A stretch of 64,000 nt of DNA, from IMG/VR virus record IMGVR_UViG_3300043409_000680, positions 1 through 64,000 of that record; one strand, given 5' to 3'. This DNA comes from a virus. Position numbers and translations under genes: made by a program. The notes under the pieces are model-generated. The model was not told the DNA's origin. It made no database searches and saw only the letters and a program-made list of their open reading frames with translations. Below, one piece after another: positions 40,094 to 48,803 of this stretch (position 1 is its first letter; each line of letters starts with the position of its first letter).

Positions 40094-40567
40094 ATGTCCG
40101 ACAAGGTCGAAGAGTTCTTTGGAAGCCTGGATGATTACTACCCAGGCTCTAAACGTAAACGTCGCCCTATTGATCCAATTGTTTCAGATAAGAAAAAGAA
40201 AAAAGAAGAAGCAAATTCCTGGGATGCAAATCCTCAGGTAAAAACCTTACCTAACGGTAAGACAGTAGAGCTGTTTAGTGCAGGGTCATTGTGCCAAGCA
40301 TTAGGCAGACCGATAGTAACTCTACGGCTGTGGGAACGTAAAGGTTATATACCGCGTGCACCTTACAGACTGCGGTCTATGATTATAGATGGAGTAAAGA
40401 AGCCAGGTTGGCGTATGTACTCTAGAGCTATGATCGAGACTACTATCAAAAGTTTCGAGTCCAGGAAGCTACTTAATGCTCCCCGGATTGATTGGAATAA
40501 GTTTCCAGACTTATCATTTGAATTAATGGAAGACTGGAAACAAATTCACGATCAAGAAACTGCTTAA
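40094..40567 (+). CDS. MerR-like helix-turn-helix protein
   Basis: Residues about 59-92 (LFSAGSLCQALGRPIVTLRLW, then ERKGYIPRAPYR) match the winged-helix/MerR DNA-recognition motif. The N-terminus is a lysine-rich, probably disordered segment. There is no effector domain. It may regulate phage transcription or help replication; its place just upstream of the SSB-like and polymerase genes is suggestive only. Confidence 0.65.
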   Translation: MSDKVEEFFGSLDDYYPGSKRKRRPIDPIVSDKKKKKEEANSWDANPQVKTLPNGKTVELFSAGSLCQALGRPIVTLRLWERKGYIPRAPYRLRSMIIDGVKKPGWRMYSRAMIETTIKSFESRKLLNAPRIDWNKFPDLSFELMEDWKQIHDQETA

Positions 40568-40573
40568 TCAACT

Positions 40574-40602
40574 TAGCGCAAAAGCTCACCCGAGCTTAGC
40601 TA
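40574..40602 (+). promoter_or_regulatory. Leader hairpin upstream of the SSB-like gene
   Basis: A perfect 6-bp stem AAGCTC / GAGCTT with the loop ACCC (40582-40597) is enclosed by an outer TAGC / GCTA pair set (40574-40577 and 40599-40602). It lies 24 bases before the ATG of the SSB-like gene, whose ribosome site is GAAAGGA. No T-run follows, so a terminator is unlikely; an RNA control element is possible. Confidence 0.4.
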
Positions 40603-40626
40603 TCAACCTACAACCGAAAGGACGCC

Positions 40627-41322
40627 ATGAGCGCCGCATCACTAAAGCTAAAGAAAGAAACACCTAATGTAGATTCATACGGATCTGCAGACCTTGAAGA
40701 AGAACTCTTTGAGGTAGAAGATGAAAATGAAACTCCTGCTCGTTCATCTTCAGTACAATCAGGCTGGGCTGCTGCTAAAAAAGTAGCAAGCTCACAATCT
40801 AAGTCTTTTGCAACTGATTTCAAGTTTGACGAAGACGTGCAACTAATCAAGTTTATCTCTGATGAACCAATGGCTTTTATGCAACACTGGGTTAATCGCC
40901 CAGGTAAAAAGTCATTCATCAGCATCGGTGAAGATGATCCACTACTAAAGGTTGGAAGTGTTCCTTCCCCTAAGTTTGCATTCACCGTACTAAATATCTC
41001 TGATGAAGAACCAGAGGTACAGTTAATGACCGTTGGGGTGCGCCTTTGTGGTCAGCTAGAGAAGCTTGCTTCGAATCCGAAGACAGGTCCTCTAAATCGT
41101 GCTGATCTCTATTGGGCAGTAAGCAAGTCTGGTCAAGGCACCAAAACTTCTTACTCTGTAGTTCCTGTAAAGGAACGAGACCTCGCTGAAGAATGGGAAC
41201 TTGATCCCGTTGCTGTTGCTGAGTTGGTCAAAACTGCTAAGCCTCTAGGGTCTGAAGCTCTCCAGACTTCTACCAAGGCCGAGTTGGCAGAGATTGCTCG
41301 TGAAATCGCAGCAAGCATCTAA
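40627..41322 (+). CDS. Probable single-stranded DNA-binding protein
   Basis: The 231-residue protein has an acidic, disordered N-terminus and a core of about residues 60-185 that resembles phage gp32-type SSBs. It has VQLIKFISDEPMAFMQHWVN, then GKKSFISIGEDDPLL and SPKFAFTVLNIS. In relatives the DPLL region often contains Cys residues of a zinc site; they are missing here. The gene lies directly before the DNA polymerase gene, as expected for an SSB. Confidence 0.65.
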   Translation: MSAASLKLKKETPNVDSYGSADLEEELFEVEDENETPARSSSVQSGWAAAKKVASSQSKSFATDFKFDEDVQLIKFISDEPMAFMQHWVNRPGKKSFISIGEDDPLLKVGSVPSPKFAFTVLNISDEEPEVQLMTVGVRLCGQLEKLASNPKTGPLNRADLYWAVSKSGQGTKTSYSVVPVKERDLAEEWELDPVAVAELVKTAKPLGSEALQTSTKAELAEIAREIAASI

Positions 41323-41337
41323 GTAACCCATAAACGT

Positions 41338-41396
41338 TGTGGGGGCCTGGTTTTTAACCTCCTTTCTACAGGCCCCCACAGCACCTATTTAAGGAG
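41338..41396 (+). promoter_or_regulatory. Hairpin with 16S-3'-end-like loop, able to pair with the polymerase ribosome site
   Basis: A 12-bp perfect stem (41338-41349 TGTGGGGGCCTG and 41369-41380) closes a 19-base loop. The loop bases 41357-41368 read ACCTCCTTTCTA, the sequence of the 3' tail of many bacterial 16S rRNAs (anti-Shine-Dalgarno). CTCCTT in the loop (41359-41364) is complementary to AAGGAG (41391-41396), the ribosome site of the DNA polymerase gene. Pairing would make an H-type pseudoknot that hides that site. No T-run follows, so it is not a typical terminator. Confidence 0.65.
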
Positions 41397-41400
41397 AGCA

Positions 41401-43389
41401 ATGAACATTATTACTACCACAGAACAGCTTGATGAGTTTGTTGCTGCCTACGATAAAGTAGATGCATTTGTCTATGACGTAGAAACTGTTGGAGTACACC
41501 GAGGAGATCCACGACAGAATATTGTTACGTGGATTGCTTTTGCTACTAACGGCCGTGTAGATGTTATTCCTATGGGTCATCCAAATGGTGATTATATTCG
41601 TACCAATTTTCCCCTCTTGCCTTCTGCTCAAGACCGTATTATAAAAGGACTTGCTATTCGTCCATCAGACTACAGCAAAGATGAGCGCAAAGCAACTAAA
41701 GTATTTACAGAAGCACCAGAGCAATTAACTACTGGTGAAGTATTCAAGGCTCTTAAGCCTTTGTTTAGAAGTGATAAACTAAAGATCGGACACAACTTAA
41801 AGTTCGATCTGCAGAGTGTAACCAAGTACCTTGGTGCCCTGCCAGCGCAGCCGTACGCTTGTACCCTCAATGCTGCGTTTATTATTAATAGCCAGAACCG
41901 TCTCAACTTAGGTCTTGATGATTGCCTAAAGCGTGAGTTTGGTTACGAAATGGTTAAGGGTGTGGGTAAAGAAGTCGAAGTCTACAGCTTTGATGAGGTT
42001 GCTACCTACGCTGCCTTAGATGCTGAGTGGACGTGGAAACTGTGGCAAAAGTACTCCCAAGATCTTGACAATGATAACTTGCGTGGACTATTCCGTCTTG
42101 AAATGGATGTGCTTGAGGTTATCTCTAATATGGAGCTTCATGGCGCTAACATTGACGTAAGCCAGTTAACAAAGCTTAAAGCGGAGCTTGAGGTACAGCT
42201 GGAGACTACAAAAGCTACTATCTACAGGCTAGCAGGTAAGGCTTTTAATATTAATAGTATTCCTGAAAAGCAAAGACTTGTTTTTGGCGCTAAGAAAGAT
42301 GGCGGACGAGGTTTAAAACCTAAGGGACGTAATGCGTTAACTCCAAAAGGTACAAAGAATGAAGAAAGCGGAAACGCTCTTTCTATTACAGATTACTCTG
42401 TATCTGAGCCAGCATTAAAAATCTTTCAAGGCAAAGATGCTTTAGTAGATGCTCTACTTAACTATGCTGATTTAAATAAACTATTAACTACATATGTTAT
42501 TCCATACTTAGGTGGAGACATTACCCGTACAACTTCAGGTAAAGCTAAGATTGTTGCTAAGAAGAGTCTGTTAGTTAAGGGAAAGATCCATACTGATTTT
42601 ATACAGTATGGTGCTGAAACGGGTCGCTTTGCTTCACGCAACCCTAACCTTCAAAATATCCCTAACTCTAAAAGTGTCAACGGTAAGGCGATCCGTAACC
42701 TCTTCGTTGCTCCGGATGGTTACAAAATGATTGTGGCTGACTACTCACAGATCGAACCACGTGTCACCGCTTCCTTCAGCGGGGATCGCCTTATGTGTGA
42801 GGGTTACTTAAATGGTGAAGATGTGTACGTAACCATGGGTAAGCTTATGGGTATTGATGATCGTCCCAAGTGTAAGACCTTGTTTCTTGCTGTTATGTAC
42901 GGAGTTGGCCCAGATAAAGTAGCAGCAGATATTGGCTGCTCTGTTAGCGAGGCTCGTGACTTGTTAGATCAGTTTGCAGGTAAATTTCCTACTGTTATGC
43001 GTTATAAGAAGCAAGTCATTTCTGACTCACGTCGACGTGGCCCAATACCTTACGCCAAGACTTATTTAGGACGCCGCCGTTACTTGCCTAATCTTCGTTC
43101 TGGTGTAATGTGGGAGCGTGCCCAGGCAGAGCGCCAGGCGTTTAACACTGTTATACAAGGGTCTTCAGCAGATCTTATAAAGCTTGCTATGATTAGGGCA
43201 CATAAGCTAATCCCGGATAAAGCAAGCCTTATCCTTACCATCCACGATGAACTTGTAACTGTTACTCCAGAGAATTTGGTAGAAGAAACAGAAGCAGCAA
43301 TTCGTGAGGCTATGGAAGGAATTACCGCTCTCAGCATTCCGTTGTTAGCAGAAGTAAGTATTGCTAATAGATGGGGAGATGCTAAATAA
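41401..43389 (+). CDS. Family A DNA polymerase with 3'-5' exonuclease
   Basis: The 662-residue protein has a DnaQ-like exonuclease with Asp26 and Glu28 (YDVETVG). The polymerase motifs are A VADYSQIEPR (Asp447), B R488...K492TLFLAVMYG and C IHDE (615-617). It lacks the 5' nuclease domain of bacterial Pol I. At the position equivalent to E. coli Phe762 it has Leu496. In motif A, Pro replaces the Leu of SQIELR. It is the replicative polymerase of the phage. AAGGAGAG stands 2 bases before the ATG and may be controlled by the hairpin upstream. Confidence 0.93.
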   Translation: MNIITTTEQLDEFVAAYDKVDAFVYDVETVGVHRGDPRQNIVTWIAFATNGRVDVIPMGHPNGDYIRTNFPLLPSAQDRIIKGLAIRPSDYSKDERKATKVFTEAPEQLTTGEVFKALKPLFRSDKLKIGHNLKFDLQSVTKYLGALPAQPYACTLNAAFIINSQNRLNLGLDDCLKREFGYEMVKGVGKEVEVYSFDEVATYAALDAEWTWKLWQKYSQDLDNDNLRGLFRLEMDVLEVISNMELHGANIDVSQLTKLKAELEVQLETTKATIYRLAGKAFNINSIPEKQRLVFGAKKDGGRGLKPKGRNALTPKGTKNEESGNALSITDYSVSEPALKIFQGKDALVDALLNYADLNKLLTTYVIPYLGGDITRTTSGKAKIVAKKSLLVKGKIHTDFIQYGAETGRFASRNPNLQNIPNSKSVNGKAIRNLFVAPDGYKMIVADYSQIEPRVTASFSGDRLMCEGYLNGEDVYVTMGKLMGIDDRPKCKTLFLAVMYGVGPDKVAADIGCSVSEARDLLDQFAGKFPTVMRYKKQVISDSRRRGPIPYAKTYLGRRRYLPNLRSGVMWERAQAERQAFNTVIQGSSADLIKLAMIRAHKLIPDKASLILTIHDELVTVTPENLVEETEAAIREAMEGITALSIPLLAEVSIANRWGDAK

Positions 43390-48753: not shown

Positions 48754-48757
48754 AAGT

Positions 48758-48787
48758 AATAGGGCCTGACTAACCTCGGGCCCTATT
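48758..48787 (+). promoter_or_regulatory. 5'-leader hairpin
   Basis: A perfect 9-bp stem AATAGGGCC (48758-48766) / GGCCCTATT (48779-48787) lies right after the promoter and 7 bases before the ribosome site AGGAGG (48794-48799). A-rich sequence follows, not a T-run. The loop holds CCTC (48774-48777), complementary to GAGG of the ribosome site. It could stabilise the message or modulate translation. Confidence 0.5.
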
Positions 48788-48803
48788 AAAATTAGGAGGC
48801 GCA

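Follow-up and report, generated by a model that had tools for sequence, protein, structure and literature searches.

In phages T4 and RB69, the gp43 operator is a short hairpin with a conserved UAAC loop that lies 5' of the start of a B-family polymerase gene, overlaps or adjoins the ribosome-binding site (RBS) and is bound by the polymerase, while the gene 32 operator is a pseudoknot that lies 5' of gene 32, near a Shine-Dalgarno sequence (SD), and regulates this gene for a single-stranded-DNA-binding protein (SSB). Among SD-sequestering expression platforms, H-type pseudoknots like preQ1-I have an anti-SD strand able to pair with an SD located 3' of the stem. The RBS-masking hairpins of T4 e, soc and 49 and of phage mobE dampen the initiation of phage genes by holding the SD inside a stem, and the staphylococcal UCCC-loop RNAs (C-rich-loop sRNAs) are independent, trans-acting sRNAs with a loop complementary to SDs.

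Here we describe a hairpin between the genes for an SSB and a family A DNA polymerase (polA) in a viral stretch of 64,000 nucleotides (positions 1 to 64,000 of IMG/VR record IMGVR_UViG_3300043409_000680; hereafter, the window). Like the gp43 operator, it is a conserved-loop hairpin just 5' of a polymerase start and its RBS; unlike that operator, which contains no anti-SD or 16S mimic, it displays a copy of the 3' end of 16S rRNA, and it is known here from sequence alone. It also resembles the gene 32 operator in combining an SSB gene with an RNA structure near an SD. An earlier, sequence-only reading of this DNA had likened the element to T4 gp43 and gp32 autoregulation, a comparison that holds for position only, since the gp32 operator is found 5' of gene 32 and not 3' of it; the pseudoknot with UUAAA repeats 5' of the SSB start that typifies gp32 operators was not found here, where the element is 3' of the SSB gene. 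The element differs from the preQ1-I type in carrying its anti-SD in the loop of a long stem, in reproducing as many as 12 nt of the 16S tail and in having no recognised aptamer, and from the hairpins of T4 e, soc, 49 and mobE in that the SD lies outside a separate hairpin. With the staphylococcal sRNAs it shares an SD-complementary loop, but not their nature as independent trans-acting RNAs. No description of an anti-SD-loop hairpin was found in the open-access literature and the few subscription papers covered, and Rfam covariance models gave no match at gathering score in the window or in 8 loci of other contexts. Taken together, the sequence comparisons point to an undescribed RNA control element.

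The hairpin lies on the + strand. Its stem comprises 12 perfect base pairs (41338-41349/41369-41380), which T41337·G41381 and G41336-C41382 lengthen to 14 bp, so that the full arms, identified by direct reading, folding and compensatory changes across relatives, span 41336-41349 and 41369-41382. The 19-nt loop (41350-41368) is U-rich in its first half and ends in ACCTCCTTTCTA (41357-41368), an anti-SD mimic equal to the 3' end of actinobacterial 16S rRNA. The 12-base identity is real, because an actinobacterial 16S gene (in L717) reads ...GGATCACCTCCTTTCTAAGGAG and matches the loop at 12/12 bases; an alphaproteobacterial 16S gene, for contrast, reads GGATCACCTCCTTTCT. Two other near matches in the window have 2 mismatches each, and the exact 12-mer occurs once, with ~0.008 copies expected by chance on both strands. 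The CTCCTT of the loop (41359-41364) is complementary to the polA SD AAGGAG (41391-41396), with a computed duplex energy of -8.2 kcal/mol; 22 bases separate ACCTCCTTTCTA from this SD, the strength of which is middling for the phage (rank 18 of 46). Directly 3' of the stem is ACCTATTTAAGG, with no T run, and an 8-nt spacer (41383-41390; the family median is also 8 nt), which would form loop 3 of a pseudoknot, leads to the SD, placing the stem end 18 nt from the polA ATG at 41401. The hairpin folds at -32.6 kcal/mol (z = -3.98), a value equalled by 1/200 shuffles. On re-reading, the stem, loop and coordinates given in the sequence-only reading proved exact, as did its identification of the 16S end, its judgement that chance was unlikely, the loop-SD complementarity and its pseudoknot loop spacings of 9, 4 and 10 bases, the last of which becomes 8 with the 14-bp stem.

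Two further observations concern similar structures. The actinobacterial pre-16S in L717 (~1940) reads ACCTCCTTTCTAAGGAG, so that its anti-SD can fold back on the spacer 3' of it (CUCCUU-UCU-AAGGAG), a pairing identical to that of the window loop with the polA SD. The window also contains a second strong hairpin (48757-48788; 12-13 bp, loop CTAACC) that lacks an anti-SD loop, 3' of a 119-aa gene and directly 5' of the Shine-Dalgarno AGGAGG.

The polymerase gene (41401-43389, + strand) was assigned by homology. The upstream gene (40627-41322, + strand; 231 aa) had been called SSB-like, a label that is borne out by a weak PHROG match (phrog_1192, E 3e-4) together with homology to the annotated SSB of Streptomyces phage Alone3 (25% identity, E 2e-10), the gene for which also adjoins polA. 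No + strand terminator was found in 40400-41600, so the hairpin itself lacks the combination of a GC stem and T run; nor was any + strand promoter-like match found between ssb and polA. Because there is no such terminator and the sole + strand promoter-like match, at chance frequency, lies 5' of the SSB gene, the hairpin is probably contained within an ssb-polA operon transcript. The neighbourhood is actinophage-like, with genes for helicases, a primase, a RecA/UvsX-like recombinase, a resolvase, WhiB and a Cas4-like exonuclease; WhiB has been reported in phages of freshwater Nanopelagicales (PMC10202952).

Conservation was assessed in 63 viral contigs related by polA in which the upstream region was readable; close cultured relatives were not found. 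The exact 11-mer ACCTCCTTTCT is present in 48/63, CTCCTTTCT is kept in a further 4, CCTCC forms occur in 6, and 5 have none of these. The loop is retained on differing stems down to ~65% protein identity, while some relatives (L024, L044, L045 and L058) have kept the hairpin and lost the loop. Stem letters vary freely with pairing maintained: RNAalifold finds two-sided changes at 6/9 pairs, and a stem-anchored count over 34 distinct hairpins gives, for example, CG/GC/TA/AT at pair 2. Hairpin and loop are thus conserved upstream of polA in related phages, and the stem covaries, so that both comparative checks proposed in the sequence-only reading turn out in its favour.

Pattern scans had first found the same design before other genes, in unrelated phages, after which sampling was by protein homology and not by motif; the two additional families were therefore located through the motif and sampled afterwards by homology. 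In the first, in which a gp32-like SSB gene (PF08804) is followed by uvsX, 79/80 loci carry the loop UUUCCUCCUUU or a close form. In the second, in which the phrog_1328 major head protein gene precedes the next gene, ~70 loci share an almost invariant GG-UUCUUUACCUCCUUUCU-CC, and more distant capsid relatives with the design were also seen (L452, L478 and L526). The same anatomy occurs once between an SSB gene and a nucleotidase gene (L503). In L436 and L459, a 147-aa gene follows the major head gene and is itself followed by a terminator-like hairpin with the loop UUUUACCUCCUUUCU; in L459 (1870-1920) this 15-nt loop is accompanied by an uninterrupted T run and a next gene without an SD. Capsid cases in which CCTCCTTTCT forms, or could form, the 3' arm of an ordinary terminator (L128, L150, L171, L176, L109, L145 and L184) were not counted. 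Across 20 records, CCTCCTTTCT occurs 0-3 times per record and the hairpin of this design at most once. Within the loop, 11 nt are constant in the polA family and 17 nt in the capsid family. The polA and gp32-uvsX families, each with gp32-like SSBs, might have a common origin; the capsid family is separate. Among the matches listed from bacterial genomes, none has a stem, SD and gene context like those of the phage cases.

Most members of the polA and capsid families are contigs of uncultured phages. In the cultured Streptomyces phages BRock, Alone3 and pSt2308 and in Stanwilliamsviridae, a hairpin without the 16S loop occupies the corresponding place. The same loop was also seen in hairpins 3' of genes of unknown function in L231, L513, L219 and L146. 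In Bacillus phage Goe26 (L342, 2990-3060), a strong hairpin 3' of the gp32-like gene is followed by CCTCCTA-GTC-TAGGAGG, a separate small hairpin that hides the recA SD and so reaches the same outcome by another structure. Finally, in the loops of all three families the stem-top GGU or GG has an alternative partner in the motif's (A)CC (GGU...ACC, or GGA...UCC in L301 and L331), giving a possible second conformation.

Substitution patterns in the stems distinguish between the strands. With wobble types counted without bias, G·U outnumbers A·C by 28:12 in the polA family, 47:9 in the gp32-uvsX family and 83:2 in the capsid family, where 8/16 pairs are compensatory. It is therefore the sense strand that folds and, as judged from these patterns, the functional molecule is sense-strand RNA; an antisense SD-loop RNA on the reverse strand is ruled out by the same excess. 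It is accordingly very improbable that the element is a chance match or a DNA-level feature (a replication origin hairpin or an antisense transcript with an SD loop), for although single-stranded DNA could form the hairpin too, the site lies among replication genes and the reverse strand carries a perfect SD, the design recurs after capsid genes, the G·U excess marks sense RNA as selected and, on sequence comparison, a chance match of the loop is excluded because it is identical across ~200 loci.

The sequence-only reading had proposed that the loop masks the polA SD in a cis pseudoknot and acts as a translational switch. We considered the geometry, derived from folding only up to the SD, through the median stem and spacer of each family: 13 bp/8 nt for polA, 12 bp/7 nt for gp32-uvsX and 20 bp/2 nt for capsid. 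Spanning 13 bp with 5-8 nt of spacer is a tight fit, and the models make a loop-SD pseudoknot possible, if tight, in the first two families, including the window (13-bp stem, 8-nt spacer). In the capsid family, with a stem of ~20 bp, a covarying outer helix and an SD only 0-4 nt away, it is predicted to be impossible with the stem formed. As a group, then, these elements share the loop-SD complementarity of SD-masking H-type pseudoknots, but the stem/spacer fit fails in the capsid family. This is also the family in which the loop is most constant, and yet its SDs vary (AGGAG, AGGA, GGGA, CGGAG). Since loop and SD are both constrained by 16S rRNA, loop-SD covariation is uninformative; SD pairing requires only 4-7 nt of loop, whereas 11 nt (polA) or 17 nt (capsid) are constant and SDs vary widely. 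In the window, masking of the neighbouring SD may occur, but it cannot explain the loop in general, because capsid-family geometry forbids it and the next gene in L459 has no SD. The switch is consistent with the conservation, covariation and SD complementarity seen around polA, but fails to explain the capsid family and the L459 copy.

The explanation we favour, at somewhat less than even confidence, is an intercistronic RNA element that damps translation after a stoichiometric gene. The element sits 3' of the stop codon of a protein needed stoichiometrically, which is the SSB in the window and gp32 or capsid in the other families, and the SD of the following gene usually comes directly after it. 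Its presumed effect would be to hold initiation at the second gene below that at the first: the stem would keep ribosomes that terminate on the first gene apart from the start of the second, and the loop, as a counterpart of the ribosomal anti-SD, would compete with 16S rRNA for the polA SD. A ligand such as the SSB, the polymerase or a ribosomal protein might open the structure or lock it. In the window this form would be an H-type pseudoknot with a 12-14 bp stem, a 6-bp loop-SD helix and an 8-nt crossing loop. Such damping is supported by the conserved loop, the compensatory stem pairs, the sense-strand G·U excess and the recurrence of the design, by the loop-SD duplex energy and the tight spacers between stem and SD, by SD hiding in Goe26 and by the hairpins at the same site in cultured Streptomyces phages. 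Against it, cis pairing in the capsid family is impossible unless the outer helix opens, the L459 copy is a terminator whose next gene lacks an SD, the loop is conserved beyond the needs of cis pairing, some relatives have kept the hairpin and lost the loop, and no more than one such hairpin exists per genome examined, though many gene pairs need different dosage.

A broader reading, to which we give rather less credence, is that the hairpins form a convergent phage RNA class in which the most abundant messages end in a hairpin displaying the 16S rRNA 3' end. Members of this class would act by imitating rRNA, capturing either a factor that binds the 16S tail or SDs in trans, and not by simple local SD masking.

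It is also conceivable, but unlikely, that the pyrimidine-rich loop on its stem is a protein operator, the putative binding site of the phage's SSB or polymerase, as with T4 gp32/gp43, or of a ribosomal protein or 16S-tail-binding factor to which the loop looks like rRNA; complementarity to the SD would then be a by-product of copying the 16S tail. A constant loop that exceeds the needs of SD pairing (17 nt in the capsid family) would fit such an operator, which would also account for the capsid family and the terminator copy; three upstream genes encode SSBs, and the T4 gp43 operator, a conserved-loop hairpin ~40 nt 5' of the polymerase start, provides a precedent. However, the presence of the same loop beside capsid genes argues against the SSB or the polymerase as the single ligand, and against gp43-type polymerase binding and repression, and the T4 gp32 operator sits 5' of gene 32, not 3'. 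Phage bS21 was rejected as a ligand, its gene being found in only 1/20 records and missing from the other 19/20. One gp32-uvsX phage record (G019, 124346-124498) encodes a ribosomal protein S21 homolog.

That the hairpin acts as a leaky transcription terminator, or stabilises the mRNA end, 3' of an abundant gene, with the loop secondary, appears less probable again. This is suggested by the T runs of at least 5 after the stem in 16/40 distinct gp32-uvsX copies, by the terminator-like L459 hairpin with its uninterrupted T run and by plain terminator-like hairpins 3' of the SSB gene in Streptomyces phages, but a T run is absent from the window and the capsid family and present in 1/49 polA-family copies, and terminators have no need of a conserved 11-17 nt loop.

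Equally doubtful, if not more so, is a trans-acting decoy, in which a loop carried on very abundant messages would pair with the SDs of other messages and lower their translation. In keeping with this, the element is present once per genome and follows genes (SSB, capsid) whose messages should be the most plentiful, and its loop is complementary to any SD and independent of the neighbouring one; yet the phage's own SDs would be affected too, free 30S subunits should be in large excess over the decoy, and six capsid-family genomes have no conserved perfect complement. No constant trans complement of the loop was found within the phage, and pairing with the SD of the upstream gene was discarded, as the SSB, gp32 and MCP SDs differ and do not track the loop.

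The broad kind of regulation involved, phage intercistronic translational control, is already known; what is unexplained, and most interesting, is the rRNA mimicry. The finding would add to phage gene control a recurrent, Rfam-absent RNA element, in which the part of the ribosome that reads start sites is reproduced within a message, at the junction between a stoichiometric gene and its successor. RNA libraries curated from cultured genomes would miss it, because the polA and capsid families come from contigs of mainly uncultured phages. It would open to test the means by which phages adjust SSB:polymerase and capsid:neighbour ratios in a single operon, and also whether mimicry of rRNA serves against the ribosome or is put to use by it.
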